From: Bacteroidales bacterium
Lineage (GTDB): Bacteria; Bacteroidota; Bacteroidia; Bacteroidales; Marinilabiliaceae
Length of the DNA stretch: 64,000 nucleotides
NCBI GenBank assembly: GCA_024401365.1
Contig: JAKSLE010000001.1
Span: 124,001-188,000, forward strand
Direction of reading: 5' to 3'
Shown here piece by piece: positions 1 to 46,139 of this stretch. Position 1 is the first letter of the stretch. Every line of letters begins with the position of its first letter. Below the pieces are notes generated by a model. The model saw only the letters and a list, made by a program, of their open reading frames with translations, searched no databases and was not told where the DNA came from. Both the position numbers and the translations under genes were made by a program.

Positions 1-3000
1 CACAATCGTCGGTCTTGATAGTCCAACGGAATGTATTCACGCCACGGCTAAGACCTGTAACCATTGTATGGTAATCGGTAGTATCCGCGAAGTGGATAGT
101 CTTAGACGAACCGAGGTAAGTCCAGTATCCAGGCAATCTACCAGGGTTACCAGCGTTGAGGTGGTACTGATCCTCGTAGGTTACATCATTCTCACCTGCA
201 TAAGGGTCAGCCTTCTGGCAATAGATTACCACGTCGCTCTCAGTTACGCAGTTGCCATAGCTGATAGACCAGCGGAAGATATTCTCGCCGTATCCGAGGT
301 TGATAACCTCACTCTTAGCATCAGTTGTATCTACAAGTTCACCCCAACCTTGGAGGAGACGCCATCTACCCTCACCGATGCTAGGGATATTAGCATTCAT
401 GAATGTATTATCCTTACAACGGATCATATCGTCACCCGCCTTAGCCATATCAGGTATCTGGTTCCAGACGCTTACGGTATCGATGCTCTGACACTTGAAT
501 GTCTCGCCATCGTAGGTACCGATATTGTCGATTACCCAGAGGAACTTATTCTCGCCAAAGATAAGGTTACATACCTGAGTCTTAGGATCGAGAGGGTTAT
601 CGAATGACAAGTTGCCAGCCTCATCGTTGAGAGTACCAGAAACTGTCTCCCAGTGGCCCTTACCGATAATTGGCACATTAGCATCGAGGACACGACAATC
701 TGAGCAATCCTTATCGTCAGGACCTGCATCCGACCTAGTAGGAGTAAAGTTAGTCAATGTTATGCGATCGCTCTCGGTACACATACCATTTACGCTAACC
801 TTCCATTCGAGGGTTGTGCGGCCATAAGCCAAGTTGGTAATCTTGGTACGAGGAGATGTTGGGTTTTCTATCTTACCACCACCCTCGTCGACGATAGTCC
901 ATATACCCTGACCATAGGTAGGAGTCAACGCCTTGAGTTCAAATTCATTAGAACATACAGCCTCATCTGTACCTGCCTTTGGAGTATCAGGCTTATTATT
1001 CAAGATATGTACATCGTCGGAGAGGATACAAGTCAATGTATCGACATGCTCTGTACCATTCTCATCGATACCCTTATATATAGGTGTCTTCTGAGTAACC
1101 TTCCAACGGAATACGTTATCGCCCTTACCAAGGTCGACGAATGAGCGAGGATTGAACTTATCCTTGAACTCAGCCTTACCATTGATTACCTCCCATTCAC
1201 CGACACCTACTTCAGGTTTGTAAGCCTCGAGAGTTGTGTAATCCTGGCAAAGAGTCTGCAAGCCACCGGCGTGAGGAACGCTAGGCTTACCATTCACGAC
1301 AGTAACCTCATCGTAATCTGTACAACCCTTGAATGAAGTAGTCCATCTCAAGATATTCTTACCACGAGCGAGGTGAGATATGAGAGAGTTAGGATTATTC
1401 ATATCAGAGAACAAGCCGGCACTAGCACCACCCACGATACTCCAGCTACCGTGAGCATCGCCTGGGTCACTAGCCTGAAGCATAGTCTTATCGTCGCAAA
1501 TCTGCTGATCTTCACCAGCGTATGCGTTAACCCTATTGTATTCTACTATCACATCTGCAGTAGAGACGCAAGTCACAGCCTGTTTATAGATACGAGTAAC
1601 AGTCCAACGGTATCTGTTACCATCCTTATTGAATGGTATATCGCGAACCGGAGTTGAAGCCTGATCAGGGAAGAGGATTGTACCACCACCCTCGGCAACA
1701 TCCCAGTGACCACGTTCGATAAAGTCGCCCGTCTCGTCTATTGCCAATTCAGATGCCGACAAGATAGTAGCATTATTATCGCACAACTGCTGCATACCGC
1801 CTGAGATTCGGGCCTCGGTAGCCGAGTTGTTGATGATAATCACAGAATCGACAGATGGACACTCGAGGTAGTTGACTGTCCAAAGGAGGACATTTCGACC
1901 ATTACCAAGGTTACGAACCGTAGTATGAGGATCTGTTGGATCATCGAATGCGCCACGTCCGCTACCAGCCTTAATAGACCAGCGGCCGATACCTGGATTA
2001 GGGTTATTAGCTGTCAACTGTACGCTATCAGCACAGAGAGGAGCCACATCACCGGCCTCGGACTTAATGAATATGTTATTCAAAACAGTCTCATCGGATG
2101 TTGTACATTCACCATTCTTGATAACCCAACGGAATCTGTTGTGACCGAATGCCAAACCAGAAACTGTTACTGTCTGGTTCTCTGTACCATCGTTACGATA
2201 CAAAGTGATACGATCTACGAGTTCGTCATCTGGGCCTGCTGGGTTTGGATTGACGAACTGGCCGCCACCCTCGATAAGCTCCCAGTAAGCCTCGGTAAAG
2301 TACATAGGCTTATTACCAGACAAGATACTTGTAGAACCACAGACTGTGAATGGATTATCAGGGCCAGCATCAGCCTCAGTAGGCTTGTTGTTGATAACAG
2401 TAACCTGAGACTCAGAGTTACACAAGCCACCCTTCTCTGTTTCGATACGCCAGATAAGAGTATTCTCACCCTGACCGAGGTCATATACGTAGTTATCAAT
2501 GAACTTAGCCGAACCACCGCTTGCTACCTTCCAGTAACCATTACCGTATGTTGGCGAGTTAGGATTAAGTTGGAGAGTACCATCACAAGTATAGAGGGTA
2601 CCACATTCATTATCCTGACCGCAAGCCCAAGCCTTATCAGCCATATCGTTCTTAACGGTGATTGTATCGGAGCTTGAACATACACCATTAGTAATAGTAT
2701 ACAAGAATGAGTTCTCACCCTGCATGAGGTTAGTTACAACAGGGCATCGAACATTGTGAGGATCCACGCCATTTGGAACACCCTCATAAGAGAAGTCACA
2801 AGCACCAGAAATCAATCTCCACTCGACAGAACTCTGAACACGTTGGATATCGCCATTGATCTTATGGATTTCGTAAACCTTCTCCTTAGGCTCGTTACCC
2901 TGGAGATCGAATTCGTAAGAACAGATAGCGCGATCACCCACACGGTCCTCACCAGCGTAAGCCTGAGTTACCGAAAGGTTCCATATCTCGACGAAGTCAA

Positions 3001-5110
3001 CCATGACACCACTATTGTAAGTGATAGACCACTCCAATACATTCTTACCTGGTTTCAAGCCTCGGATAGTTGTACGAGGATCAGATACATCATCGAACTG
3101 ACCGCCACCCTCAGCAACTCTCCAACGACCGATACCGTTGAATGGGCCATTAGCACTAAGCTTGTATGTATTACCGCAGAGGTCGTACTTATTATCACCT
3201 GCCTCGGCAGCAGTTACACTACCGAAGGTTATCTTGACCTCATCAGAAATCTCACAACCCTTATTCCTCACTGTCCAACGGAACGTTGAAGTACCCTGTG
3301 CGAGATCCTTGACCTCAGCATCATGGTCATGGAGTTTGTCAAGGTCGAATGTACCACCACCATCAACGAGAGACCATGTACCTTCACCGAATCCAGGTGC
3401 TACTTCGATAGCTGTCATCTTAGTGTGGTTATCTGTAAGATCTGTCTGATCCTGGCCGGCAATCTCGTTGGTGTAATCTGTAACGAACTTAGGAGTATTG
3501 TTTGTTACTATGATTGTATCACGAGCAACGCACATACCATTATTAATAGTTACAGACCAAACCATATAGTTGTCGCCATGACGGAGACCGCCGACATTAG
3601 TAACAGGACTATTTGGATTACTGAATGTAAATTCGCCCTTACCAGCGACGCCAGTCCACTCACCAGTCCACAAACCTTGGACATTAGGTTCCTTTGCCCT
3701 CAACTCTGTCTGAGAAGAACAAATTGGGAAGTCCTTACCAGCATCGACCTCGAATCCATTATTAGAAATTACAAGGTCGGCATAAGAAGAACAACCACCC
3801 TCGTTGCTCATGATTGTCCAACGGAGGACATTCTTACCTCTGCCGAAGTTCTTAGCAGGAGACTTAGGATCTGTGAGGTCATCGATATCTGCATGGCCCT
3901 CAAGAACTCTCCATGTAGCATGTTCAAAGAGAGGGTTGATTGGATTACCAGTCAAGGTAGTCTCGCCATCACAAACAATCTGATCAGCCTCTACAGTTGC
4001 AGGTGTCACTGCATTGTTGGTAATGATTATTTCATCGCTACTTACACAACCCTCCTGAACAATTGACCAAGTGAACTTATTCTCACCCTGACGGAGATCT
4101 GTTACAGTTGTTGTTGCATAAGTCATATTATCGATTGAAGCAGTCTGATTTGCTACAGACCTATCATACTCCCAATATCCCTCGCAACCTTCTGGAACTC
4201 GAGAAGCGTTGAACTTGTAAGTACCATCGCACGATGTATCATCTGGGCCAGCATAAACTGTCAGTTGAGCATTGAAGATATTTACTGTTACGCTTCTGCT
4301 ACAAGCACCGTTCTTAATAGTATAGCGGAAGATGTTATCGCCCTTGGTCAAATCCTGGATTGTGAGAGTTCTCATAGAAGGATTGATTGTTGCCCCACCT
4401 GTGATACGCTCCCAAGATCCGAACTGATCGGCATGGATATTATTCTTCCACTCATTACCCTCCAACGTGATTGAAGTACCGCAGACTACGTAACGATAAG
4501 CCGATACATTGTTCTCCAACTGCTGAGTCATCATAGAAGGTATAACATCGACCTTATTATTACCATCAACGATTGTTACAACAACTGGATCTGGCTCATG
4601 GTTATCAACTTTGATTGTAGCTGTACTCTCACAATTGTTCTTTGAGATAGTCCATACCAATGTATTACCATCACCCTGATCGAGATTACTAACAACTGTA
4701 TGATAAGTGTTAGCGTTCTCGATATCTCCGTGACCATTAGTTACAGACCACAAACCTGTAGCACCCTCTGGTATAGGGGTACCCTCGATTTCAGTCTCAC
4801 CATCACAGATATAAGATGATACTACGTGAGCATCGACAATATACTTATTGTTATTTACAACAACTTTCTTAGTCAATGAACAACCACCTTGTGTAGTAGT
4901 AACTGTCCATGTGAAGATATTCTCACCCTGTGCTACATGAGTCAATGTTGCTGAAGGGCTAGTCATATCGCTGAAGTCGGCAGCACCCTGTGCGATATCC
5001 CACTTACCAGTTGTACCTGCAGGCAATGTTGCGGTCAACTTCGTATCAGGACCACAAATATTCTGTGTAGGACCCACGGTGAATGTTGGCAACTCATATA
5101 TAGTTACAGG
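1..5110 (-). repeat. Array of 19 G-x-W repeats, continuing past the window
   Basis: Nineteen units of about 70-100 residues were counted by translation. The consensus is A-x-A-G-x-D-x-x-x-C at the start, G-x-G-x-W in the middle and LxxGxNxFxWxI...C at the end. Examples are GIGRWRVAEGGG with KNVLEWSIT, and GKGHWETVSG with NKFLWVID. They are usually joined by short D-x-V-x-I-x-N-N linkers. Such repeats occur in large Bacteroidota surface proteins, but I do not assign a named family. The last unit is cut by position 1, so the true number is unknown. Confidence 0.75.
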
Positions 5111-26100: not shown

Positions 26101-29100
26101 TGCCAGGGTTCTTACCATATCTTACATATATAGTATAGTCGCCGGCAAGCAAGCCATCGACATTGAGAGTCTTGACAATCAGCTTCTGACCATCCTGAGC
26201 AACATCGTTGGCATCATCAGTCGATTTGTATGTCAAGTCTACCTCGTTATCCTCAGCAAGTTTGTACTTCTTAGCTGTTGTAGACAAAGTAGACAATTGT
26301 ACCCAACCTGTAGCGTCCTCATTAACTACAGAGGCAGACTTCTTTACGATGATAAAGTGGAAATCTGGATCGAAAGCCAAGTACTGAGGATTATCGGTAG
26401 CAGCAGAAGCAACCTTAGAAGCGAGACCTGTGATTTTGATAGCTACCTTACCATCGGACTCACCCTTACAAGTTACAGGAGTCTCTGTATAAGAGAATGT
26501 GATATCAGGGAGAGGAGTGATAGTAAACTCTACTGTTTTGTAACATGCGTCGTTATCGCCAGAGACGATACGAACAGAGTATATACCAGGCTCTAGACCG
26601 CTGACGGTAGTACCCGTAGCATCAAGTTTCTCACCAGTCTTCTTAGACCATATTACGGTATATGAAGCAGGAGCAGCACCTGTAAATTCTACAGCTGCAG
26701 AGCCCATAGTATTAGAAGCGCCCTGAGTATCACATACATACTCTTCGGTAACCTTTACTATAAAGTCGATAGGCTGTATTTCCTTTACTTTATATGGAGC
26801 GCTCTTAAAGTAGCAACCAGTAGCATTATCCGTGATACGTACTATATAGTTGCCTGCACCTACGCCAGAATATACTATCTTATCGGTACCCTGACCTGTT
26901 GTTGCGGTAGTGGCAGTAGATATGTTTGTAGCACCTGTAGCCACAGAGTACCACTGATAAGAATAATCTGAAGTAAAGTTAGGATTTACTACCTCTACAC
27001 CATCCTTGTAAATCTTCGTAATTTCGAGTCGTCCATTGTCCTGACCAGTACAAGCATCATCTACGGCGACATCTACGGAATAGTCTGGCTGAGTCAATGG
27101 CCAGATTTTCATGATATCTGTAGTACAGTCGACAATGCCCTTAGTACCTGTTGCCTTTGCATCAGTCAGCCCTCCACTTCTACTATAAAGTTCATTACCA
27201 TCCTTATCAAGAACATAAACATACTTCTTATCCTTATCTACATAATATGTAACTGGCAAAGAAGATTTGATTACCCAACCATCGTTAGGATTTGCTGTTT
27301 GTTGTATCTTATGAGTTGCATTGTCATCAACAGTATAATTGATTGCTGCGTCGGTTGTAGCTGCACCTGTATTGAGTTTAAGATCGTAAGCAATAGCTCC
27401 GTCGGTTGCGTGAGCAATCTTGAATGTGTAGTAACCGTACTTACCCTGATCGAGATTCTGCTTAGGGAACTTAAGTTCTGGTGTAAGCAAGTCATAACCT
27501 GCAGCTGGGTTATTTACCCAGTTAACCTGGAGCGCTCCGGTGGCATCAGGGTAGAGAGAGCAATACATAATAGTCTTATTCTCAAGCACTTCGTGCTTAG
27601 GAGCTACATAGTACTGCTTCATTACCGACTGAGAACATCCACCGTAATCATCAGTTGACTTGAATATATAGTTGATACTATACACACCTGGAGACAAACG
27701 TTCTGGGTTGAAGTAGAATGTACCAAGTTCGTCATTAAGAGAACCATCAGTAGGAATATTTGTCACTACTGTATTCGCTGGATACAAGACAGTTACTCCG
27801 TCGGCTGCCAAGATATCATTCTCTGGGATGAACTCGAGTCCGAAGTTTTTACCCGTTGAAGAATTTTGTAGAACCACCTCGAACCAACCGGCACCAGGGA
27901 CGGTCTGAGTAGAAGTCAAGTCAGGATGACTAGTCTCCAATTTATAGCTACCTGGAGCTGCGGTACAGAAAGCGCGAGGCTCCTCGGTTGCACCAGAAAT
28001 ATCCTTCACGTTGAACTGGACATTTGCGAAGTCGTTGAGGTAGAAGCGCTTAGTAACTCGGTACGAACACTCACCCGCCTGGTAATCGAAGTTGACACTA
28101 AGGTATGCACGGTCGACGCTCTTAATAGACTTAACATATTCTTTAAGATCGAGAAGAGCTCCGACACCATCAGCCAAGTTATATGTTATCACATTACCAT
28201 CACTCAATGTCATATTACCATCACCATCCTCGTCCCAGATGAGGAGGCCATCGTAACCCGTCTCACCCAAAGAGAACTTACCATGAGTAATAGCGTTACC
28301 CTTAGCATGGAAGAGGACATAGTCGTTTTTCAAGAATGTTGTATATCCGTCGGCATTCAGCTCCTCCTTAGTTGTACATATTTCCTCGTTGAGGTCGATG
28401 GTTACAGAAGAACCATCCTCAATATGTATACGACGAGCGAATGGGAAACCACATCCGACATAGTACAATACTCGATAGTCGCCTGGTTGCAGAGACGAAG
28501 TATAGATTGCGTAATCAGATATGTACCATCCATCTGCGACAGGGAAGTTGGTACTATTGATTTTGATCAATCCGTCCTGACCATCCACTGGTGTAGTTGG
28601 TATATCACGCTCCGAGCCATCAGGGTTAAGAAGTTTCTGGATATAGAATTCGCCTGGCACTTCGCCATCTATCAAAGTCTGAGGATTGAAGTACAACTTA
28701 TTAGACTTATCGAAGACGTCGAGGTAGTTTGTACTCCAACAGAGAGTGAGGGCAGGAGTAACATTTGAGATCAACTTACCATCGGCATTATACCATGTAT
28801 GATCTGGGTCATCGTTAGGATCACGTGGATCACTTGAAGATGTTGGGAACTTACCTTCGGCCATTGTTGAATTGTCCCAAGAGTCTTCACCATAGATGAT
28901 AGAGAATGGGTCGGCGTTATTTGTGAGGAACACCTCCCAAGATTTTGTCATGGTACAACGATCCTTCTCAGCGACGAAAGTCCACTCGAAGAGGTAGTGA
29001 CCTTCGGTGTTAGCTTCGTAAGTCCATACGAACGAAGGTTGTCTAACTCCATCGTCAGTCCAGTCCCAACCGATCTGGTCGGTAAGATTCTTCGACGTGT

Positions 29101-32100
29101 CATCCGAATCAGCGTTACCTATGATACCGATAGCATTACCGTCATACCTTATATAAGGTATAGCTGTTTTTGAAGCATCGTTCAGAGTAACAGTCTTAGG
29201 ATAGTTAGTTGCTGTAGGGTCGATGATAGGAGTACCATCAGAGTTGTACCCTCTGATTTTGTTAATCACCACGGTACTTCTACCGGCAACTCCCTCATAA
29301 TTAAAGTCGTAATCCTTGAATGTCACCCACTCTCTAGCAGGAGCGGCGTCCTTATTTATATGAGGATCGTCAGCTGCGAGGGAACGGCTTGGGTAGTTGA
29401 GGAGTACACGAACAGAAGTCTCGTTAGTCATAGTACAATAACTCTTCTTCATGTTGTGAGCCAAGTCACGAAGAATTTTTATTGTACGAGAGTAGTCGGC
29501 GCGGCACTGATCGTTTTGGTTGTTACGACACTCGGCGCCGTTATCAACGTGGAGGTTGATAGAAGTTGTATTATTGTTGCCCACCAGAGAAGGTACGAAT
29601 ACGTAGTGGTGGACATTATTAGGATCTGTTGTTTGAGCACCAGTGTTATCTACTGCGTAGACGCCGACACCATTGAATGTATAATAGTAGTCGTTGACAT
29701 CTGGCTTAGTGTAGTCGCTGAGTTGGTATGGCTTCTTATAGCTGAATGCGTTATGATCATTAATCGCAGCCTGTGTCATCTGCGAACCAGCGATTATGTC
29801 GCCATCTGTGAATGTATAGTACGAATCCTCTGTAATAGAGAAGGTTTCGGAAGCGCCAGCTACTGGAGCGTAAGCGTATTCTACTGTAATTGTAACAGGA
29901 ATGCCGTTAGGACAAGATACGCTGAAAGTATGATTTGTACCCCAATCGGTAGTCACTGAGACCTCGTTATTATTAGCGATCAAACCTATAAAGCTCTGTT
30001 TACGAGAGACTATGCCCGCGTAACCTACAGGAACAGTTCCGATGCCGAATACTTTATCGAATGACTTTGGCTTAACATAATCAACTCGATTTCCTGACGT
30101 TGGAGAGTCGTACGTGAGCACTGGGTCGCCGTTATCGTAAAATTGGTACTGGTAAACATAAGGTACGAGTTCGTACTCATTAGCATCCGTAGGGCAAAGG
30201 AAGTCCTCGGAGAATCCGCCCTGGAAGCCATCGGTAAGGCCCTTGAACTCGAAGAAGATCTCATCGGCCACAGGCTGGAAGAGTTTAGACTCCTTCTTAA
30301 CCTCGTACACACAACCTGTGAGACCATCCTTATATTCGTATGTCCACTCTACAGTTTTACCGTTAGCATTCCAACGATGGTGGAGGAGTGGAGAGAATGT
30401 ATATACAGAAGTTTGACCATCATCTACTGGGTCATCCTCGTACATTACACCTTCGACGAGCAACTTACCGTAACCGCCCTCGGTCCAGTGATCAGGTATA
30501 CCGCGGATAGTAATATAGTCGTTGGTACAATAGCAATCGGCAGCATCGATACGGTACTCGTTGATATCGCGTTTTTTATTAACAGTGAAATAGCCATCTA
30601 CCCAGAAGACCTCAGGACACATTACTGATTTGAAGCGCACCTGGTAAGTTGCACTATTTGCGTTAGCGTGAGTAATAGCAGGCCTAAAGCCTTGGCAATT
30701 AGCTGCGAGATACTCGGCAGAAATACCATCAGGAGTAAAATATCTTGGGTCGAATATGGTAGAACCACTCTGTTTGAGAGTAATCTCGCACAAGTCGTTT
30801 TGGTTTTCGCCCACGATATAATATTTACCATCACCTGGGCTAAAGAACTCACGGAGAAGGACTGGGTCGCTATCCTCACAGATAGACCAAGCAGGATCGT
30901 TCTGTTCTATTTTAAGTTTTGTAGAATTAGGGCGTATATTAAGCGTATACTCTGTGACGGTAGAAGTACAAGACTCTGCGCTAGTAGCATCCTTAGCTAC
31001 GACATAGTATTTGTATTGATAATTACCATTAGCGTCGTAGTTGGCAGGGTTACGCATATTCTCAGGAATCTGAGCTGAGAAGGTATAGTCGGCGCCCTTG
31101 TTGAGAAGATCCGCCTCGAGCAAGTTATTAGAAGAGTACCAATAGTACTGGAGGTTTGTTGTAGCGCCAGCCGAGCGAGCGGTAAGCGTTATTTCCTCGC
31201 CCTCGCAGACGATAGTAGACAAGCCCTCGCTAGAGTTACCGATACTTACTGTAGGGGCATTAGGAGAAGATTCGATACTAAACTCCTCTGTATCAGAAGA
31301 ACAAGCTGGGAGAGCGGGGTTATCTGTGATTACAGAGATAGTCACATCGCCGGTAGTAAGATTATAGTCGTTAGCGGCGAAGTCGAAAGTAAATGTATAA
31401 TCGTTGAGGGCAGTAACCTTAGGGTCGGTACTATCGACATATTTTTCTACGCCATTACCAACGATTTGGATTTTGAACGTGTATCTAGAATGTTTATCCA
31501 CCTGGTAACGGATAGTTACTGGGTATCTCTCTGCGCCCTTATCGGAGACGCAGAAATGGTTAGGGATATTAGAACTCAGTTCAGGTTCGTTCTGCACCTT
31601 TACGACGCGCACTTCGGCGGAAGCAGTAGACTGGCATCCCTGAGCGTTTTCTGCTATAATATTATAGTTACCTGCAGGAATACCTGAGCCATCGGCCTGG
31701 CTGAAAGTCAATGTTGTACCATCGCCGCTCTTGACTGTACGTTCGTAAGTCTTAGTAGGGTCGGCGCGGTTGACGAGAGTATATTTAGCATTAGGGCTAC
31801 AACCTGTGATAGTTACTACGGCGCCCTCGTTATTATCGTTAGCGCAATAATAGAAAGGAGTAGTCTGGACGGTAGGCGTCTTAGGTCTAGCCTCCACGAG
31901 GACTTGGCCTTCGAGGTAGACGTAGCAATCGGGGTTATACCTAGACTTAGCGCGAGCGTAGTATGTAACATCCTCATCATCGGCCGAGACTATACCGAAG
32001 GAAAGTTTATTTGTATTATTACCGTTAGAAGTACCCAAGAGGGTTTCTACTCCACTGACTACCTTATATACTTCGTATATTACATCTGTTTCGGTACGAG

Positions 32101-33427
32101 TAGTACCTGTGGCGTCGATAGTAAGTTCTGTACTACACTTAGTATTAGTACCATTGAGGCGGAAATCCTGGCTAGGTCTCATAACCACCTCGATAGCTTT
32201 GCCCTTAGGGGTCACAATGCCACTAGCTGATCTTGCACTTACGTAGTACGTACCTGTCTCTGTAACCGTAAATTGCCCTCCAGTAATTGTTGTACCTCTG
32301 GTGTCAGCGCCCTTATACCAAGTATAAGTTGCACCAGGCGTAGGGTTTGTAAGAGTGATAGTTGCGCTACCACCCGTTGCGCAGATTACGCCACCCTCGG
32401 CATCGGTAGTGACATCAGGAACCTGATTCTCGGTTATCTCCATGGTAACTGTATTATTTACAGTAACGCATGGGACATCTGTACGGATAGAGTAGACACC
32501 TGGATCTTTAACTGCTTCAGGGAAATATGTTTGAGCATTCTTTTTCGAATCGAGCGGGCCTAATGTGCTCACTTCTGTGGTAACTCCATTATGGAGACGG
32601 ATCAGTGTATATGTAACTCCAGCTTCAACAGGGTTAACCCATACCCTATATGGGACAATCGCTCCGCTGGCAGAAGTTGCTGCTTCCCAACCTGCGCGCC
32701 CTGCCCCACCGGAGCCCATTAATTTGAGACTACCATCGATTACTTCGGGTGCCGTTGAGCAACCAACCCTAGATGCCCTGACATGATAATCGCCCGCAAC
32801 TAAACCGGATACATTGAATTCCGTTTTTTCGTTATTATTATTACAAGTAATAGATGCACCTGGCACAGGCAACCCATTACTACCATAGAGAGTATAAGTA
32901 ACACCCTTTTCTGCATTCATGACAGGCAACTTAGAGACTGAGCCTGTACAGTACGTTTTTGCTCCGATACTTGTAAGTTTGCTGATACCTTCTACAGAGT
33001 AGACGCTATTGGGATTGATAAGAACCCTTCGATCGACCCTACTACCCGCACTAATTATACCATTAGGATCTCTATACCATATCGTATACTCGCCAGGTTC
33101 AGAGACATGGAATTCCATTGGAGTTCCTGACGCCGTACACTCAATCTCCCAAGTAGAGCCATTAAATGGATAGCGAGTTAAATCAACTGGCGAAAAGCCG
33201 CCACTTGCACCACTATAATCCTTCTTACTAACGCCATAAATCACACCCGCCACAGGATTATTCAGGATAATCACGCCCTCGCCTGGACAGCCTGTACCAG
33301 TAACGATGGTTCCTGGAGAAGTCTGTGCGAAGGCCTGGAGGGAGGCTATGGACATGATGATGAAGGCGGCGAATATCGACACTATTTTGTGGACATTCGA
33401 CGTTATGAGGTTTGTCAAGTCATGCAT
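1..33427 (-). CDS. Giant SprB-like T9SS surface adhesin (3' end outside window)
   Basis: This is a single minus-strand frame of 11,142 codons with no stop seen; the C-terminus lies outside the window. Frame was checked at positions 4, 8647, 20095, 26098, 30220, 31678 and 33427, and all agree. Residues 1-35 form a signal peptide ending SLQAFA before QTSPG. Residues ~36-2110 hold varied Ig/PKD-like domains. Residues ~2110-8960 hold about 70 SprB repeats (pattern CxGxxxGxIxVxVxGGxxPYxYxW, then LxxGxYxVxVxDxxGC). Residues ~8960-9440 are Ig/PKD-like, and 9440 onward holds 19 G-x-W repeats. SprB of Flavobacterium johnsoniae, the known gliding adhesin, is about 6,500 residues, so this is much larger, roughly 1.2 MDa as seen. 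Export by the T9SS and surface attachment are inferred from family and from sprA/gldH nearby; the C-terminal sorting domain is not visible. In-frame ATGs at 33451 and 33469 are alternative starts; 33427 gives the most normal signal peptide. Confidence 0.93.
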   Translation of the reverse strand, partial: MHDLTNLITSNVHKIVSIFAAFIIMSIASLQAFAQTSPGTIVTGTGCPGEGVIILNNPVAGVIYGVSKKDYSGASGGFSPVDLTRYPFNGSTWEIECTASGTPMEFHVSEPGEYTIWYRDPNGIISAGSRVDRRVLINPNSVYSVEGISKLTSIGAKTYCTGSVSKLPVMNAEKGVTYTLYGSNGLPVPGASITCNNNNEKTEFNVSGLVAGDYHVRASRVGCSTAPEVIDGSLKLMGSGGAGRAGWEAATSASGAIVPYRVWVNPVEAGVTYTLIRLHNGVTTEVSTLGPLDSKKNAQTYFPEAVKDPGVYSIRTDVPCVTVNNTVTMEITENQVPDVTTDAEGGVICATGGSATITLTNPTPGATYTWYKGADTRGTTITGGQFTVTETGTYYVSARSASGIVTPKGKAIEVVMRPSQDFRLNGTNTKCSTELTIDATGTTRTETDVIYEVYKVVSGVETLLGTSNGNNTNKLSFGIVSADDEDVTYYARAKSRYNPDCYVYLEGQVLVEARPKTPTVQTTPFYYCANDNNEGAVVTITGCSPNAKYTLVNRADPTKTYERTVKSGDGTTLTFSQADGSGIPAGNYNIIAENAQGCQSTASAEVRVVKVQNEPELSSNIPNHFCVSDKGAERYPVTIRYQVDKHSRYTFKIQIVGNGVEKYVDSTDPKVTALNDYTFTFDFAANDYNLTTGDVTISVITDNPALPACSSDTEEFSIESSPNAPTVSIGNSSEGLSTIVCEGEEITLTARSAGATTNLQYYWYSSNNLLEADLLNKGADYTFSAQIPENMRNPANYDANGNYQYKYYVVAKDATSAESCTSTVTEYTLNIRPNSTKLKIEQNDPAWSICEDSDPVLLREFFSPGDGKYYIVGENQNDLCEITLKQSGSTIFDPRYFTPDGISAEYLAANCQGFRPAITHANANSATYQVRFKSVMCPEVFWVDGYFTVNKKRDINEYRIDAADCYCTNDYITIRGIPDHWTEGGYGKLLVEGVMYEDDPVDDGQTSVYTFSPLLHHRWNANGKTVEWTYEYKDGLTGCVYEVKKESKLFQPVADEIFFEFKGLTDGFQGGFSEDFLCPTDANEYELVPYVYQYQFYDNGDPVLTYDSPTSGNRVDYVKPKSFDKVFGIGTVPVGYAGIVSRKQSFIGLIANNNEVSVTTDWGTNHTFSVSCPNGIPVTITVEYAYAPVAGASETFSITEDSYYTFTDGDIIAGSQMTQAAINDHNAFSYKKPYQLSDYTKPDVNDYYYTFNGVGVYAVDNTGAQTTDPNNVHHYVFVPSLVGNNNTTSINLHVDNGAECRNNQNDQCRADYSRTIKILRDLAHNMKKSYCTMTNETSVRVLLNYPSRSLAADDPHINKDAAPAREWVTFKDYDFNYEGVAGRSTVVINKIRGYNSDGTPIIDPTATNYPKTVTLNDASKTAIPYIRYDGNAIGIIGNADSDDTSKNLTDQIGWDWTDDGVRQPSFVWTYEANTEGHYLFEWTFVAEKDRCTMTKSWEVFLTNNADPFSIIYGEDSWDNSTMAEGKFPTSSSDPRDPNDDPDHTWYNADGKLISNVTPALTLCWSTNYLDVFDKSNKLYFNPQTLIDGEVPGEFYIQKLLNPDGSERDIPTTPVDGQDGLIKINSTNFPVADGWYISDYAIYTSSLQPGDYRVLYYVGCGFPFARRIHIEDGSSVTIDLNEEICTTKEELNADGYTTFLKNDYVLFHAKGNAITHGKFSLGETGYDGLLIWDEDGDGNMTLSDGNVITYNLADGVGALLDLKEYVKSIKSVDRAYLSVNFDYQAGECSYRVTKRFYLNDFANVQFNVKDISGATEEPRAFCTAAPGSYKLETSHPDLTSTQTVPGAGWFEVVLQNSSTGKNFGLEFIPENDILAADGVTVLYPANTVVTNIPTDGSLNDELGTFYFNPERLSPGVYSINYIFKSTDDYGGCSQSVMKQYYVAPKHEVLENKTIMYCSLYPDATGALQVNWVNNPAAGYDLLTPELKFPKQNLDQGKYGYYTFKIAHATDGAIAYDLKLNTGAATTDAAINYTVDDNATHKIQQTANPNDGWVIKSSLPVTYYVDKDKKYVYVLDKDGNELYSRSGGLTDAKATGTKGIVDCTTDIMKIWPLTQPDYSVDVAVDDACTGQDNGRLEITKIYKDGVEVVNPNFTSDYSYQWYSVATGATNISTATTATTGQGTDKIVYSGVGAGNYIVRITDNATGCYFKSAPYKVKEIQPIDFIVKVTEEYVCDTQGASNTMGSAAVEFTGAAPASYTVIWSKKTGEKLDATGTTVSGLEPGIYSVRIVSGDNDACYKTVEFTITPLPDITFSYTETPVTCKGESDGKVAIKITGLASKVASAATDNPQYLAFDPDFHFIIVKKSASVVNEDATGWVQLSTLSTTAKKYKLAEDNEVDLTYKSTDDANDVAQDGQKLIVKTLNVDGLLAGDYTIYVRYGKNPGNYKGCLYLTDFTVTEPTDAISIERIAVTDISCNGSSDGVLEVTAMKGGNVTDFGTLSNYFYRLTDKDGANLTGALATYSTYSNTYKFDKLPADTYRLYASDKATDGCETFEYRTIYEPGIINLAYPVFDACNATIRANVNGSWALTDAKDNGHMHVSKFEMSVWDGADKATASMVTDWAEVAPGVDHLFGIDLSAVTTATTYYVHYRVTWINDGTLTADGNPITYECSGSKAVKVEPSISAEITATVDYLCADNTFENSTNKKSVATISAKALYGGATTHVYKLFKLTDMSQIVYEYEADGVTVKLDANGDPISHEVTTTVETLKQSATKTVGADGSTTAEFTLQSGDPGRYVIYVYPGSDQASCKATTAIVEITQPKDLIVLAKDITPDNGQHVGAIELYPMEGGNSNLDASGNKYTWTWFENNDPESETANIGTTQLGTPNDNPITGLHVQGEKFSWFWIHVVDGKACWLDKEFKVMGNSLQVDATPTYNPCAGEENGAITLTIHGEPNYDVWLGSTKMNENPITPDAPTGQNATYIIPNLAAGKYTVTVKDANGVSQTITDIEIKDVSNMVKVGEAKHMLCAEGEGEILATLTGGAVKADKVNYHWYLYKDGAKDAHRQGVVDTQDATSKESQISIDKLSEGSYMLEVYDYNSIEAGATDANTCHITYGPIVLTQLKVDLNIVQPDCPDGIKGSLEVKTENAIGTLTYAWDVLDDKGTVDTSDDVWTPYTGPNNTSSKIDNLTPGTYQVRVKDAARTVSLASTDVCELPASAVLEYQRVVTFDDVKPTVEKCAGDGNLVHVLVSINGFTDTEVQELTFTYDGYNGFHQTTSIDRSSGKTNQYYLKDVVLPTALDANGDPMEVEYTLSVYHPITGCTYTKTIPVEGIKPIDFEFDITDYCSAPDRKLEIKNFTYAGNEANYYFTWSGDSIPQGVPVNNLSLEKIPNGGTYRLTVTDKVNSLCSTTKSIFLPSDIYINTKNITLVECEGDNNGSITVDAKPTYSEYGYKYSWQYAAGTEDTEPADAAFAALPANASSHTTTPYIVTGPAGWYMVTVTNNNVKYPCSETKKIYLPEHKITAEISHVDIVSCADMSLNGKIKVRPSGGTAPYKVVVKVGTATSSNVAAQITNVRENNLVEFDNLAAGEYAVIITDKNGCEKSYTQTILQTPPIEVNLVEFALLQGSATGTASIKVTGGKPTATDSYAYEIRLVNNTTGTSTVKTYKTGDATNPIAADGIINLTALAAGIYQLEVTDANPESDAASCRASMYFGLNVLESHVAPSCATDEDGLIELAVTGQTDNQKITYALTATDLSNSPLTVADENIIKSTGKVRYQNLKPGKYSIVVSDDEDINKGTYTLKEITLSYQKALSISIASHKDATCNGSTDGQIEVNAVTTGLTGGANYTWYKVTNPEETNLANYIFNEVAATEWRRNGATFTGFSAGIYKVRIYEGTDKDGCYAESETVKLEEDPYVDFVLQVEDACDVDNRTVDVYVLSELVSDPKYSTYTFNWSGDAYNNNNGFVYTAATTPTDGTGTLSTYKKVGSVSGILNGGLLTLELQAASGCKNVVSKTVKYNDKLTIVLDHIEPIGHASNAEIVAKAAGGNGIGSYTYEWYKKDGATYPATPSATTREPIYDNLQAGTYKVVVKDGDCEAELVDIVVNPYQGLSVTASATEVSCNGQSDATITAQATGGNGNYRYQWYKADASDNLVLLAGRTESQLKNASAGSYKVVVTDTDGALNETSVVVVEPVSIAFSLQKTKDVNNIGKEGALKIVFDDVDLRRASTLTVANTDGEIATWDATKRFLNVKYYKNSVLSDITIEIAWSGTLTNTTNALTQTGLVSGSYSATATVVSASGAKNCPETRTVTFVQPMSMAYSSTNSTCLGRNTGSVTITMSGGSGDYRFVWKDLHGDITTPENFTALNARNNLAAGTYYVRVVDIHPRNIDGDANTADEYCFYPSATGWEEITIADNRPFSVAGTSADVECYGAQTGTISMAVQGGSGIYNYAWSGTGEGLDKGTSVSNQTSLSAGTYRVVVTDKTYGCTADMEFVIKGPENPMEVTTVVSDATCYGESNGSIKVEVAGGTLATGSSYQYRIKGVQDTDIDIPASGVISGLKSGNYILTISDDNKKCEQSIPVAIAQPEKLTIDFTAYDVSVEGENNGKISIDEITGGTKPYKLYWNTSLDVNGDVESDVTNQDLYLRTGLAVGTYYVQVVDANGCKSDAVPISIGSNGALAVNVTPENVKCFGDNSGKLNIMISNGKRPFKVYVDDILKADDFTGNSLLVLDGYGVGEYRIRIEDRDGGIWEQTRLIGYENGVVKSLSVTAVSNDKICFGATDGQIKVEIDGGYYVNDKYKSISLSPSAKKLTDAPASYTFGDGDNLELPAGPYIVTVVDYNDCQVSTEVVISQYDEILIDNIVVTDVTCKDANNGRITTTVSGGSGSLEYKWEEESAPGSEVWIPITNASLEANKPNLGDPVSGGLHGGKYRLTVTDNVSNCTVKKVISVNEPVALSYTISHQDVMSCDESDKTGIITLQIIGGTKPYTISLDGAEPVTTTGYYRFENVAVGERLIKVNDANGCIIPDDANDTKLSNGIIKQEIKAYRATTLNLGTYVMDDAETGTGEVHFTIADGVIDRNSSVKFEVILSSDDVVGFNSRSMYLTSPATYTGDSGNSIATWVDDTTPADQDHFDATFKGLAPGTYTIFVRDLNANVSTCEASVGFKLNKLQIVSESVKNPDCLGINNGSIMINVDGANNKISYKWYKLNVVSNNYESIDGEISNTLLNLDEGKYKVIVVDGALDETGVDSDNNHKINYLERVFDIKYDRVYTVNRVVTPELCYGENNGAISVVVDGEMADKPLSYFWSGPAGFVSNSPNISHLAPGFYSLQVVDEDGCTATYMEEDSNNPGVYVTSAIEVKSASKIEFEIGVVDGSVDCETNTRKFEFIKLSSGEFVKGGKPFNNASVGDYYRYDITGPTNLHINAPDDLKNTAFDQSGTYVMTVTDANGCAASQNFIVPDDIDLIKIPPTIGNVTCYGGSDGFITVDVTGVVNPRYEWYKQNADKSWPSDPIALTANSTATSNSLEGISEGRYMVKIYRMDEATNRECVKTFGENEADGFYVAQPKPMLFKASPIDEVGCSDEPSGKINVHVNGGNAPYTIKLYGNGNEAIDFNTTSGDYTITELRGSSAGNGNIYQIQVADASGCLAKLDGGSADENIQTIYVKRPEALQIESRTSGVEISIADGDKGYITFELVGGLANSTGYNKYRVNVTSSNYAKLFDVSYSTGAGRQAEMSQAVDKVSLDGKTIKISGLKAGIYQIDVLDINSLPTSCTATESITVSQISVDVEKGEPSCESLANGYINLNVQGATGDELTYTWFYDATNYPVPDFTDASNTSYKSLREIQTTDPSYPAYLAAQKMYLTDVAGTNLKAGFYTVVVNDLKNNVLVAQTKVNIRLRYEKNITILPHVDNEQCYGANDGSISVTVLNNGAPSYANYKYEWSGSEATLENTPMIKDLAPGEYFVTVTDDEGCSYTYVDATTNGGIIVKPATELDFSLENLKAIDCENYTRAIKIKTAKGAEPNYGTNPLGGVEPYRFTWSGPSPVTKAMSDISEIEIDTESGPQTFRIYALDDATNATPLTLHPGDAYNLKKGGLYRVTMTDANGCKLSKEITIPVEIEIDHINYTPVSCWGGDYTEKDREGNVLTDGSGNPIVTHEAGSQDGGIEVVLVEGNETVSYAWYKNKVVSGRNVADESDILSTKSSIGGQLAGLYWLHVEAGSCDKWFGPLEITQAKEPLRLTATPTNITSCVNTSTGKITVNVTGGTAPYEIYFIDGKDNTTHISYNGYYLFTGLRAERGLYRLRVTDAMGCTYPTDGGFVEVDVLQPGALDINLNRFQMNSVSGKAEVDFYITGGVEREATCKKHGDGSNNTLDGANTVALLNQNANYRYYQIVLTGEGTASYKTAVMYSWIGTAAGDHKEDGSAVEPNSEKGELVQWNDLKPGKYLLTVSDYNSDGYCSIQREFEIKDLEIETVEKKDPSCASNAADGRIVISATGNSGKLNYKWYHYPTKGDDTDMKYGDWSNLSTDAELAAYYKSAYDNKVTLTNLSVGYYKVRVIDEGTDLKGGKVVDYNYKDVNFYLDNSQSIDANPSRWTIKDQTCYGNVYDGAISPVVVAEDDSKLTFSWSGPAGFTSSDMNIKDLRPGTYYLTVTDENGCSERQYAEVKAATQIQFYLKPAGDISDVEKRTMEVHYKDATGTEQSGVTGGAKPVTDYRFDWTGPSQVKWLDNSTGINPAASGYIAGGFIEGGVYTLDVYDANMCRSSASTLELHSAVEIVADVQNVSCNAGSNGMIDPTISKGLGNYKYHWYKVNENTDLETLLPSSQNPKGFAAVTSYELKNANNDVVTTRVASELVAGWYYLVVTDFENSDYTGAHHNYYKKWHITEPDKLTVTATPVPTECYGEYSGKVTVDVTGGVAPYSYDWNLGTHKVTTTVPKLDGVKAGTYFVVVTDANGCSAQQAAVVKDASSLEFKLDIVKDVDCDGKNAELKIVFDDATVVPGTAGVNVYWNGPAIAAANSKDKISQTGLTSGLYTVTATRNGGCNVSRTVSFVDPMRIDDNVSISNNRCTGSRTGGISISVSGGSGRYSYEWTAYEDKDCTTPIDHSGLNNQNGAFQAGLVSGYYKVKVTDTERTDANGSCTVENTEPYYVSDIMQLSIIATDGVETCVGANNGSIHVSVTGGSGGYTYKWLGDGTGIIDGDKDQNQLSAGNYQVIVTDVNNGCTVTASAKVDGSKEPLAISAINVTDVDCYGKATGAIAITIEGGTPFSDTDDTADDYFNVEWTSEASILKATGRKSQTKDLKAGTYHVTVRDKFDCPVEAYIEVKQADEITSSYTVTHIEKVGAETGTIRISAIDGGKYPYKIKWFTDEDQSNPFASDVLEVRDKPAGKYWYVITDASASGCEHKKPVYINDNGALDVIIKDPKDVLCYGEASGSIDVEIYNGKAPYVITVNGQLAKEVNEPGIHQLSDLVAGVYTVVVVDNNGVEFRKKLEISQPNARLEMYATETNIQCAHTNNGTIHIDIEGGEPLKATVDDGGIAVGDYYYDVFMNGSIKVKADVTLDANGKITTAKATHDITGLRTGSYMVAVEDRNGCSRSQQISITEMPEIIITLIEKVDVMCHGSATGSIEVKESGTAKPEYKWTSEKLDGTDTEPTDVSAVTSPKLVNLTAGKYTVTVSTKYGDYAGATCTSQETFIVEEPDIMEVNLTPKHITTCNGAADGQISVYAKGGVRPYTVRFYDSMKPSSAEVVVMSTGYYTFKNLEGDRTYKVEVTDANGCLYMVEETGKDPEIPEIKIEQPAELILNNLKSSISCEGNNGVVSFYITGGNVNAGKNNYLVALTGTENRASKAYEVAETDDAAAREVKFENLPEGTYKLTVSDLNSTALNRCAIEEIITISNLHVASEIKHPSCLGINDGAVTIKVTGNDGTLEYKWETKNGDTWSEFEFGKDLQNATALGEGTYRVQITDKGKNCSITKEFTLKYITTLGLSASVTHEQCAGAADGAITNIRLDGFSDANNVKFQWTGISVDANNYNAAELHNLIPGTYTLTATDNANQCMIQETFIVEQANDAMDVELTDTENDCHFRHTITAKVYGGTGVYKYLASGPLSRVVFDAAPTTGNDNDGKGDYVLYTLSNVTRGGEYSFTFTDSHNCSVTKTIELPTELAFVQNDINITHVTCSDGDNGAINIGVTGGSGKYTYSWSGPDSYSANTPGISTLKPGTYKVVVSDGKCSINKEFQVTAPPAIDIQLNSRDITCYGDADGSITAMVTGGVAPYAYSWSNNATSRSIDNLKQGTYTLTVTDANGCQASKAKVIEEPKEISFDLVMVKDVDCKTGTGGALKIENVKGGWKPNADGVGTLSYLWSGEAVDEDGFKDKTEVDNLTSKHSGVYTVTVIDASAGRSKCALTKTFEFATPLQITAVPHAETCEGQMDGSIDVIVTGGVKPYNYQWVATDGGRGHAETSASQSGLTAGTYTLTVTDSRVDANGDANACSVETTIALGRQYNLIVDANIEDVKCYGMPSGKIELVVNGGSGDYSYVWTGPATNLVPGSPIQKNLMQGDYTVVITDNVYGCSVTRSYSIKNPDSALRVTKIEVEDVKCYGEPTGKISVTVEGGTPDANGKYTYYWAGSNAEFNNAPVADKLYAGVYSLVINDVNGCPVEVKDVEILQPSEPLSVAVKNVKHVTVNGEKTGEITVAVSGGYGNYHYKWYSSEDSFTAPIATDKTHISGLGFGSYRVEVTDENNCVVKSDLIHVHQPSEPLKAYVVATNIIPCNGDNNGMIDIDVTGGTIPYSIECYNENGYVVGAESGKSSLNVTGLAPGYYTIKVVDANRAEANYFVYNSATNLYDNTNKVKITQPSELKLIKTSRANISCYDGTTGTFSIKVEGGVPNNGNYSIEVTGPNNFKSETKSSAETYSSLKAGVYTIRVTDDSKMDGEFNYNNDCWLTDTVILYQPEAHVELSRVSTDDNYYICEGDNAELKLVTTNWNLTKRPLKVRIRRDNDPNKDVVIDVKETPYVITEFKPEKSALYSIVSLYEDDESCGRGTFNTNAVSVPVRPRPTSYIYGNRDVCYGESADVTIDLTPTTGAPWNFVVSDGHNNFNIETDETPYTFVYTPEAPGTYKLSVISVADRYCSSIEADRVGEVEIVAHDLPVVTMSGSETICQGNSAQLTFTVKGGTAPYSLTYNFVGDDGIKHVRTIAKIEDASQTGVYKAEVTVSPNVTTVYTFESVEDANGCHFSSDELSSTIAVMPLTLKPMAIKGNDVVCQGQKGVQYSVAAVDNALNYDWELPKDDQGNEMMRIVSGEGSRNIMIDVDNAFEGGILRVRAVNDCGESEWQEMLISVNRLPVKPGDIETTESFCQGDNNVSVRVPVIKYATTYDWVLPSGMQIVSGEGTASILVRVDDTQSYLKGVIKVRGYNSCGYGEWSEAVPVTIYELPTFTVGPTQNICGPDTKLTATLPAGTTGKWDIAQGAADFSDMTSPSATLTHVAQGENIFTWTVTTTQGGCSLTKKVVVNNNKYIVDAHVVSSYICDGETEIEGTPIPEGATGLWSVTNGHGDIENANTYHTVVSNLDQGDGNTLVWTISKNNCESTATIKVDNHEPDPVVVTIVDGNNKVDVIPSMMTQQLENNVSAYRYVVCGTSITLEGNEWKNNIHADQFGSWERITGGATINPSMRTLTIQDLTKGDNIFRYTIKNGACSRSVTVNIFNAQLTVYAGPDDTSCDGTYKFNASRVPEGCEGYWEYDRSVANQTASIDNMTYATTTVTDLRQGENKFTWSIVQEGCVSSDEIIITNNAVTPATVEADQIVCDGETTLTGNPINPLFEHATWRVLEGHADIDDLTDPKSPAKNFGRGKNVLRWTIMSNEGGCSSYADLVISNNGFEVDAGKDFPICSSQTELRAKEPNVQGLWTGEWTGVAGKGEFTFSNPNSPVTNVGGLRHGDNYMVWSVTINNGMCVARDTIIVTNNTPKFVTDYTNEIAGQDQTDLTDNHTKMTAIEVAPGFGEGTWSLVDGGGTFDLDKLHDHDAEVKDLAQGTSTFRWTVRNKGCEISDEVKITFGSVTAAEAGDNKYDLCGNTYKLSANGPFNGIGRWRVAEGGGQFDDVSDPRTTIRGLKPGKNVLEWSITYNSGVMVDFVEIWNLSVTQAYAGEDRVGDRAICSYEFDLQGNEPKEKVYEIHKINGDIQRVQSSVEWRLISGACDFSYEGVPNGVDPHNVRCPVVTNLMQGENSFLYTITNGVCSSSDTITVKNDMADKAWACGQDNECGTLYTCDGTLQLNPNSPTYGNGYWKVASGGSAKFIDNYVYDLGQGENTLIWRIETEKGGLCNSESQVTVINNKPTEADAGPDNPFTVCGSTSILSGNKPMYFTEAYWELIEGGGQFVNPNPAGPDDELVDRITLYRNDGTENQTVTVSGLAFGHNRFRWVIKNGECTTSDETVLNNIFIKSEAGDVAPLCADSVQLTANNPNPGIGRWSIKAGSGRGAFDDPTDPHTTVRNLGNGRNVLLWTVNYLECPSVDSVIIINNSATEARISGGMQQLCDNNATILSASELAIDETGDFIERGHWDVAEGGGTILFPDQASTPVRDIPFNKDGNRYRWTVTRIYKQAVTCVSTADVIVEYNRVNAYAGEDQQICDDKTMLQASDPGDAHGSWSIVGGASAGLFSDMNNPNSLISHLARGKNILRWTTSFKGCTDYDEVTVVNGKPSVPHAGGLQTLCQDYTTLEAYKPEVGVGEWEVINGKAEFKDKFNPRSFVDLGKGDNVFRWKVTQKTPIYKGIDENGTEHVDTLTCILSDDVHILNNKPDTPKAGTDEAVCSNEFELKALTPTYGQGIWTIVDEGGGKIENPTSPRTKITNLAYGRTTLEWKVSVNGMCTESDRITLTNFTPTRSDAGPDDKDCSDCRVLDANVPIIGKGHWETVSGTLNDEAGNLSFDNPLDPKTQVCNLIFGENKFLWVIDNIGTYDGETFKCQSIDTVSVWNQIPDMAKAGDDMIRCKDNTFMNANIPSIGEGRWRLLQGWGELVDTTDAKSEVINLGYGENIFRWSISYGNCVTESDVVIYCQKADPYAGENDVTYEDQYHLNAGNPGRLPGYWTYLGSSKTIHFADTTDYHTMVTGLSRGVNTFRWTIKTDDC
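5111..6544 (-). other. Ig/PKD-like hinge between the two repeat arrays
   Basis: Residues ~8960-9440. The domains start with YYICEGDNAELKL, RDVCYGESADVTIDL, ETICQGNSAQLTF, NDVVCQGQKGVQYSV (followed by NYDWELP) and ESFCQGDNNVSV (followed by TYDWVLP). The last two resemble the PKD-like domains common in T9SS cargo proteins. This stretch cleanly separates the SprB array from the G-x-W array. Confidence 0.6.
6545..8684 (-). repeat. Nine-unit-type SprB block A3, one unit short
   Basis: Units begin with ITCYGDADGSI, KDVDCKTGTGGAL, ETCEGQMDGSI, VKCYGMPSGKI, VKCYGEPTGKI, VTVNGEKTGEI, IPCNGDNNGMI and ISCYDGTTGTF. This matches positions 1-8 of A1 and A2, including the cysteine-free sixth unit. Position 9 is missing and the SprB array ends here. 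Confidence 0.65.
8685..10303 (-). repeat. Six-unit SprB block B5
   Basis: Units begin with TTCNGAADGQI, ISCEGNNGVV, HPSCLGINDGAV, EQCAGAADGAI, NDCHFRHTI and VTCSDGDNGAI. Unit 3, HPSCLGIND, is close to unit 3 of B2 (NPDCLGINN). This is the shortest and most C-terminal of the six-unit blocks. Confidence 0.7.
10304..12754 (-). repeat. Nine-unit SprB block A2
   Basis: Units begin with TECYGEYSGKV, KDVDCDGKNAELKIVFDD, NRCTGSRTGGI, ETCVGANNGSI, VDCYGKATGAI, KVGAETGTI, LCYGEASGSI, IQCAHTNNGTI and VMCHGSATGSI. Unit 6 again lacks the first cysteine and unit 7 again has a KAPYVITVNG strand, matching A1 position by position. Confidence 0.7.
12755..14706 (-). repeat. Six-unit SprB block B4
   Basis: Units begin with TSCVNTSTGKI, MNSVSGKAEV, DPSCASNAADGRI, DQTCYGNVYDGAI, DVEKRTMEV and VSCNAGSNGMI. 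Unit 5 has lost its first cysteine but keeps the KRTMEV and RFDWTGP strands that mark position 5. Confidence 0.7.
14707..16713 (-). repeat. Six-unit SprB block B3
   Basis: Units begin with VGCSDEPSGKI, ISIADGDKGYI, EPSCESLANGYI, NEQCYGANDGSI, IDCENYTRAI and VSCWGGDY. It follows B2 directly, so B2, B3 and B4 form three consecutive six-unit blocks. Confidence 0.7.
16714..18563 (-). repeat. Six-unit SprB block B2
   Basis: Units begin with MSCDESDKTGII, DDAETGTGEVHF, NPDCLGINNGSI, PELCYGENNGAI, VDCETNTRKFEF and GNVTCYGGSDGFI. Unit 1 has the non-Trp strand GGTKPYTISLDG followed by TTGYYRF. Unit 5 carries a long insert before its DITGP strand. Confidence 0.7.
18564..21098 (-). repeat. Nine-unit SprB block A1
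   Basis: Units begin with VSCNGQSDATI, KDVNNIGKEGAL, STCLGRNTGSV, VECYGAQTGTI, ATCYGESNGSI, VSVEGENNGKI, VKCFGDNSGKL, KICFGATDGQI and VTCKDANNGRI. Unit 2 has the K-D-V start followed by KIVFDD, unit 6 lacks the first cysteine (VEGENNGKI) and unit 7 has a KRPFKV strand. The same order occurs in blocks A2 and A3. Confidence 0.65.
21099..22872 (-). repeat. Six-unit SprB block B1
   Basis: Units begin with VSCADMSLNGKI, LQGSATGTASI (no CxG cysteine), APSCATDEDGLI, DATCNGSTDGQI, DACDVDNRTVDV and PIGHASNAEIVA. Unit 1 has the TAPYK form rather than the usual PYxYxW, unit 3 has P-S-C, and unit 5 has the NRT form, as in the other blocks of this class. Confidence 0.65.
22873..24658 (-). repeat. Six-unit SprB block B0
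   Basis: Units in order begin with NPCAGEENGAI, MLCAEGEGEI, QPDCPDGIKGSL, EKCAGDGN, DYCSAPDRKLEI and VECEGDNNGSI. The third-unit P-D-C signature and the fifth-unit RKLEI signature place it in register with the five other six-unit blocks. It is the most diverged of them. Confidence 0.6.
27100..33320 (-). other. N-terminal Ig/PKD-like domain region of the giant protein
   Basis: Translation of this stretch (residues ~36-2110) gives many beta-rich segments of the Ig/PKD type, for example ATYTWYKGADTRG and TGTYYVSARSASG, often ending in a cysteine-containing strand. They lack the regular CxG...GC spacing of SprB repeats. Around 28240 there is a calcium-loop-like motif, DEDGDGNMT. The domains differ from each other far more than the later repeats do, so this looks like the stalk tip or ligand-facing region, but that role is inference. 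Confidence 0.6.
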
Positions 33428-44474: not shown

Positions 44475-44540
44475 GTGAATCGTATATGATATATATATGT
44501 GTAGATATTATTGCACGAATTTAGTAAAAAAATCTCAATA

Positions 44541-45680: not shown

Positions 45681-45699
45681 ATCAACTACTATACTTAAG

Positions 45700-46128: not shown

Positions 46129-46139
46129 AATCAGAGATA

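Follow-up and report, generated by a model that had tools for sequence, protein, structure and literature searches.

What kind of protein is encoded by a minus-strand reading frame that begins at position 33427 of a 64,000-nt stretch of Bacteroidales DNA and leaves that stretch without meeting a stop codon, where does it end and what would it do for the cell? The stretch, called the window below, covers positions 124,001-188,000 of contig JAKSLE010000001.1 in assembly GCA_024401365.1, from a Bacteroidales bacterium (Marinilabiliaceae). The host genome, labelled G000, is a 3.05 Mb draft in 76 contigs, 87% complete, and the window is G000:C1:124001-188000 in it. Positions are given in window coordinates; negative numbers denote bases outside the window, beyond position 1. 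An earlier note on this DNA had described the frame as a giant secreted protein with SprB repeats and no sign of its end. The end can in fact be recognised in the window, as positions 1-5077 encode a stalk that precedes the end of the protein in all 47 family members counted. The stop, to be looked for shortly outside, was found at C1:123177 (window -823), 823 bases beyond the edge, which gives a protein of 11,416 residues and 1.24 MDa. The warning that gene callers would overlook the gene altogether applies at most to the window as cut, since the stop is present on the contig. The giant is probably a gliding adhesin which works like SprB and is pulled along the GldJ/K/N track, although we do not assign it as SprB itself.

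Base and arm of the giant protein across the family

A 341-residue C-terminal probe of the giant protein was run against 71 genomes of the family, and matches were accepted at E<=1e-70. Like G000, nearly all relatives are draft assemblies. A single match was found in 58 of the 71 genomes (G000 included) and in 45 of the 52 with completeness of 90% or more and contamination of 5% or less. The stalk and the tail of the neighbouring SprF carrier were counted in 47 of the 58 gene-bearing genomes; the remaining 11, with frames shorter than 2,600 amino acid residues (aa) that were apparently cut by contig ends, were dropped. Sixteen members, all complete except G017, whose frame is open at the 5' end, were read furthest, and another 31 contributed to the stalk and tail counts. 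Named relatives matched by a piece of the stalk are the Bacteroidales metagenome-assembled genomes (MAGs) Horse_feces89, Horse_feces90, SIG108 and RGIG6965 (sheep rumen), and Marinilabiliaceae bacterium MAG47.

Frame lengths within the genus of G000 range from 11,416 to 16,328 aa, and the neighbour G017 has at least 11,021 aa. Outside the genus and G017, frames that are apparently uncut measure 5,165 to 8,360 aa from stop to stop. The longest family homologue seen, G011 (G011:C1), reaches 16,328 aa and 1.77 MDa. Among the 16 members read furthest, the count of SprB-like modules ranges from 29 to 83 and tracks total length (r 0.97).

The stalk consists of 19 modules in 47 of 47 members, in three of them only after merging one split hit each. 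The raw count is 19 in 14 of the 16 members read furthest and 20 in two; it is 19 in 30 of the 31 further members and 20 in one. Stalks of 20 modules in G002, G003 and G011 were rejected, module 11 being split there into partial hits of 67+42, 67+42 and 51+42 aa. A model built from 16 modules of G000 alone agrees in the 31 further members, but among the first 16 it returns 20 hits for eight. Six of these eight have 19 modules by the other model, the extra hit being a split of module 11, and none of the eight has a hit outside the known stalk modules. The parts that flank the stalk are also near-constant: the spacer in front of it measures 458-545 aa in 16 of 16 members, and the tail beyond it 260-268 aa in the first 16 members and 258-270 aa in the other 31.

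In the 37 distant members, stalk modules at the same position are 41.3% identical to those of G000, compared with 34.0-35.5% at offsets of one to four modules, and 16 of the 19 modules fit their own position best. Judged by these identities, the stalk modules are orthologous position by position.

G013 is the closest relative of G000 by the late stalk and tail (80% identity), by SprF (78%) and by ThiL (94%). Its N-terminal part and array are only 30-33% identical to those of G000, while G009 has 58-63% there. DprA, which adjoins the start of the giant, is 60% identical to G000 DprA in G013 and 54% in G009. Identity between G013 and G000 drops across stalk modules 4 to 1, and the distal part of G013 is not clearly nearer to any other member read. 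The simplest reading of this pattern is that the whole distal arm has probably been replaced in G013, with faster divergence as the alternative. G017, which belongs to another genus, was also compared with G000 and G009. Its distal array is 48-50% identical to theirs, versus 39-40% for the same-genus G001 and G006, whereas the late stalk and tail show the opposite order, with 52-53% for G017 versus 56-57%. This may be a further hint of arm exchange.

Tentatively, and with somewhat less than an even expectation of being right, we speculate that the 19-module base is a molecular standard part, either packed in register (perhaps in a multi-chain rod like that of GhpA) or bridging a set distance from the track. 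The distal arm would then be a free cassette, roughly doubled in one gut lineage and replaceable whole, as in G013. The fibre would be pulled by a one-cysteine SprF-GldK link, simpler than the coupling in Flavobacterium johnsoniae, in animal-gut Bacteroidales where gliding is little documented.

The SprF carrier and its proposed coupling to the gliding track

A C-terminal sorting domain and a following PorP/SprF-type gene, both proposed in the earlier note as things to look for, are present: the protein ends in a CHU_C domain and the sprF gene starts just downstream. By the sorting domain and this cognate gene, the giant is classified as a type B substrate of the type IX secretion system (T9SS). 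SprF of G000 matches PF11751 (E 2.8e-53) and TIGR03519 (202.7 bits, cut-off 90.55). The gene after the giant aligns with it in 16 of 16 loci, at 37-78% identity in the 15 others.

All 47 members counted have a single cysteine among the last 45 residues of SprF; it always belongs to a PC dipeptide and is followed by 20-34 residues. As a control, other proteins of the PorP family were inspected in three genomes only (G000, G013 and G003), which encode four such proteins each. A cysteine in the last 36 residues is present in the giant's own carrier in all three and in none of the nine others. Two of the latter in G000, encoded at G000:C5:30688-31614 and G000:C6:35761-36669, follow other open frames and have no tail cysteine; by eye, the end of one of these open frames resembles a sorting domain.

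GldK Cys343 of F. johnsoniae is disulfide-bonded to a cysteine of the SprF periplasmic tail, and the PorK counterpart of Cys343, Cys356, is part of an RGCF motif (PMC12635249, in excerpt). GldK of G000 aligns with Porphyromonas gingivalis PorK (E 3.1e-105), has RGCF at the position of PorK's RGCF and scores 558 bits (cut-off 350). GldD, GldE, GldH, GldL, GldM and GldN are all above their cut-offs. Mobile type B proteins have been proposed to lack a PorE partner, PorE-linked anchoring being a proposed mark of the non-mobile ones (PMC9143113, in excerpt), and an OmpA/PorE-like domain was not found in the three open reading frames of at least 200 aa next beyond sprF. The pair of sorting domain and carrier is reported to determine whether an F. 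johnsoniae adhesin moves or is static (excerpt of PMC12618676). A motor-coupled adhesin is the best reading because of the tail cysteine, the RGCF motif of GldK, the gliding genes, the lack of a PorE-like neighbour and the precedent of the carrier pair.

The proposed mechanism is as follows. The giant chain would cross to the periplasm by means of its signal peptide and exit through SprA. Its C-terminal type B domain would be caught by the neighbouring SprF, which would remain as the outer-membrane anchor. The single cysteine of the SprF periplasmic tail could form a disulfide with the RGCF cysteine of GldK, within the GldJ/K/N track, and the GldL/M motor would drag the fibre along the cell, thereby producing gliding. 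A base of fixed build would be formed by the last ~2,450 residues, from the spacer through the 19 stalk modules and the two PKD domains to the sorting domain. This base would lift the distal SprB-like arm, free in module number and sequence, away from the cell.

Several observations weigh against such a role. The F. johnsoniae SprF has a twin-cysteine CxC tail, both cysteines being required for gliding (PMC12635249, in excerpt). The single cysteine found in 47 of 47 members departs from this, so the chemistry would have to resemble that of the single-cysteine P. gingivalis PorG. No genes intervene between the giant and sprF, which are 11 bases apart, unlike the sprB-sprC-sprD-sprF arrangement. 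GldJ is matched over its full length, but its 438.2 bits fall below the curated cut-off of 458.2, and GldB (172.2 bits) is below its curated cut-off of 190. The C-terminal probe has no match in 13 of the 71 family genomes, including seven of the 52 high-quality ones. Within the genus of G000, 4 of 15 genomes (G005, G010, G012 and G014) are without a match to the giant's C terminus at the same threshold, and all four have GldJ. In these four the giant gene may have been lost, or missed in binning. We met no motility observation for G000 or its relatives.

To these points must be added the likeness of the stalk to that of GhpA, the grappling-hook protein of Aureispira. Against GhpA, the stalk profile scores E 1.6e-104 and picks out 11 modules (4761-5720); the sorting domain aligns weakly with GhpA 5811-5882 (E 0.0039). 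Several chains of the giant might accordingly bundle via the stalk, forming a stiff filament with a hook at its tip for catching prey or partner cells, gliding being a separate matter. According to PMC13319060 (in excerpt), GhpA forms a heptamer, with the monomer spanning the filament; eight PDB entries hold 56 GhpA chains, seven per entry on average, and a constant number of modules would favour side-by-side packing in register. The stalk module is common, though, with matches at E<=1e-8 in at least 157 of 395 genomes of the class, so the homology holds at the level of the module; besides the giant it occurs, among the matches listed in this survey, in frames of a few hundred to about five thousand aa. 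As the module is so widespread, to take stalk homology as proof of a GhpA hook was judged to go too far, and this claim was rejected. Moreover, GhpA has 11 stalk modules against 19 here, and the PKD pair is unmatched in it. The type VI secretion system (T6SS) protein VipB (PF05943) was found in 0 of 37 genomes, G000 included, in a search with E. coli as the positive control, which a divergent Bacteroidota T6SS could escape. We consider a GhpA-like hook unlikely. Given the stalk homology, the fibre may still be oligomeric rather than a single chain.

The fibre could also be static, held on SprF but uncoupled from the track, and used for adhesion to host, plant matter or neighbours. F. johnsoniae has static type B proteins with their own carriers (PMC12618676, in excerpt), and an SprF tail without the CxC pair would agree with this. 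The restriction of the tail cysteine to the giant's own carrier, its retention in every member counted and the lack of a PorE-like domain beyond sprF argue the other way, and a static fibre seems rather improbable to us.

The reality of the frame itself bears on all of these readings. The minus strand is open from 33427 to the window edge, as the earlier note had stated: 11,142 codons down to base 2 contain neither an in-frame stop nor a frameshift, while the other five frames of the 33427..2 stretch have 149 to 1,314 stops each. This single zero-stop frame among six is therefore open far beyond chance. Because two more in-frame ATG codons are found 8 and 14 codons upstream of 33427, the start given for the protein is provisional. 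Repeat-rich genes are frequently misassembled, and a check for a collapsed or chimeric assembly had been advised. The longest exact direct repeat within the giant gene is 23 bp and the median pairwise identity between its array modules is 30%; a repeat-driven assembly error is therefore very unlikely. Uninterrupted homologous frames of 11,945 to 16,328 aa exist in seven genomes of the same genus, and the frame is collinear with the homologues in G009 and G004. A chimeric or collapsed assembly appears very unlikely as the source of the frame. In the base, comparison with G013 gives a nonsynonymous rate (dN) of 0.14 and a synonymous rate (dS) of 1.52, dN being about a tenth of dS, a ratio made rough by the high dS; for the distal part versus G009, dN is 0.18-0.28 and dS exceeds 3 or is saturated. 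With dN well below dS, these estimates indicate that the gene is under purifying selection. An artefact of assembly or a gene in decay, to which a draft of this completeness and number of contigs might incline one, was rejected as next to impossible on account of the open frame, the homologous frames elsewhere, dN well below dS and the lack of long exact repeats.

Domain anatomy and neighbouring genes

Features are listed in Table 1. In agreement with the signal peptide claimed in the earlier note, a signal-peptide-like start was recognised by eye, with a lysine, a long hydrophobic run and AFA-Q at the N terminus. The SprB repeats it reported are likewise present: PF13573 matches five 1,700-aa pieces of the protein, four of them at E 1e-68, 3e-47, 2.7e-68 and 2.5e-62 and one more at 5.6e-10, and the Pfam search gave no PF13573 match in the first 1,700 residues. 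SprB-like modules number 57 at E<1e-6 and 67 at E<=0.01 over the whole protein. The sorting domain scores 34.1 bits against TIGR04131, just under the cut-off of 35. A PDB search covering residues 1-5000 gave no match at E<=0.001.

Table 1. Positions of the giant gene, its parts and nearby genes (window coordinates)
Feature	Position	Strand	Basis
Giant type B T9SS adhesin (putative), residues 1-11142 of 11416	1..33427, continues outside window	-	open frame, Pfam
Signal-peptide-like N terminus, residues 1-35	33323..33427	-	by eye from translation
N-terminal (distal) region, residues 1-2121	27065..33427	-	Ig_7-like domain at 337-418; long stretches without Pfam match
SprB-like module array, residues 2122-8965	6533..27064	-	module profile and PF13573
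Spacer before stalk, residues 8966-9450	5078..6532	-	two PKD_6 domains, PF19408 E 1.2e-32, two stretches
Stalk, 19 modules of ~83 aa (K319L/PKD-like), residues 9451-11155	1..5077; last 13 residues outside, to -37	-	
Two PKD domains, ~residues 11160-11335	-577 to -50	-	PF18911 E 5.3e-32
Type B sorting domain, ~residues 11336-11416	-820 to -578	-	PF13585 50.8 bits, cut-off 27
sprF/porP, 360 aa, single tail cysteine Cys336	-1917 to -835 (G000:C1:122083-123165)	-	11 bases after giant's stop
gldH, gliding lipoprotein	42346..42819	-	TIGR03511 122.4 bits, cut-off 78.7
sprA, T9SS outer-membrane translocon, 2471 aa	46140..53555	-	TIGR04189 2517.8 bits

The gldH and sprA genes (42346-53555) share the strand of the giant gene and are no more than about 20 kb away from it. 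GldE and GldD of G000 are fused in one 637-aa frame (L093:1013-2926 of G000:C12), and a like fusion is suggested in G008 and G010 by GldD frames of 577 and 635 aa.

Meaning and comparison with known systems

The family offers what may be seen as a natural experiment on the build of a motor-driven adhesin, with a 19-module base in 47 members against an arm of 29 to 83 modules in 16. The tail cysteine, confined to the adhesin's own carrier, may serve as a marker in sequence that tells motor-coupled type B carriers from static ones. Close relatives of the host live in animal guts, and relatives with a shared base differ more than twofold in the length of the outer arm. In the cockroach hindgut, unclassified Bacteroidales have gliding-associated and T9SS genes among those with high-ranking transcripts (PMC10266427, in excerpt), which may hint at gliding in the gut.

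In a phylum draw of 395 genomes, with at most five candidates per genome scored, 21 genomes match the giant at E<=1e-30, and among these candidates residues 1-60 of the query are covered in no genome but G000. No earlier account of the giant, of its stalk number (judged by title) or of the SprF tail cysteine was found in the literature searched, which took in no preprints and few subscription papers. Giant proteins of Omnitrophota and other phyla are alike in extreme length; the excerpts of the sources describing them revealed no relation to T9SS.

GhpA of Aureispira sp. CCB-QB1 (PDB 9flp and others) resembles the giant in being a T9SS substrate with stalk modules before the C terminus, and there is weak Ig/PKD-like similarity further out. 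It differs in its length of 5,898 aa, in its 11 stalk modules, in having no match to the PKD pair and in its tie to T6SS predation. PorG of P. gingivalis has a single cysteine in its periplasmic tail, said to pair with Cys356 of the PorK RGCF motif (PMC12635249, in excerpt), but PorG is a component of the T9SS, whereas SprF here would be an adhesin carrier.

The closest comparison is with SprB-SprF of F. johnsoniae, which is alike in SprB repeats, type B sorting domain, sprF carrier and track genes. SprB carries SprB repeats, the Pfam family being named after it; the giant was likened to SprB by family matches and descriptions. The F. johnsoniae operon, named in the title of a paper, is reportedly ordered sprB-sprC-sprD-sprF. 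That order places genes between sprB and sprF, where the locus described here has none, and the F. johnsoniae carrier has a CxC tail, where SprF here has one cysteine. SprB is a highly repetitive protein of 669 kDa (PMC9143113, in excerpt), from which the giant differs in its mass of 1.24 MDa, about 1.8 times as much, and in its fixed 19-module stalk with a PKD pair.
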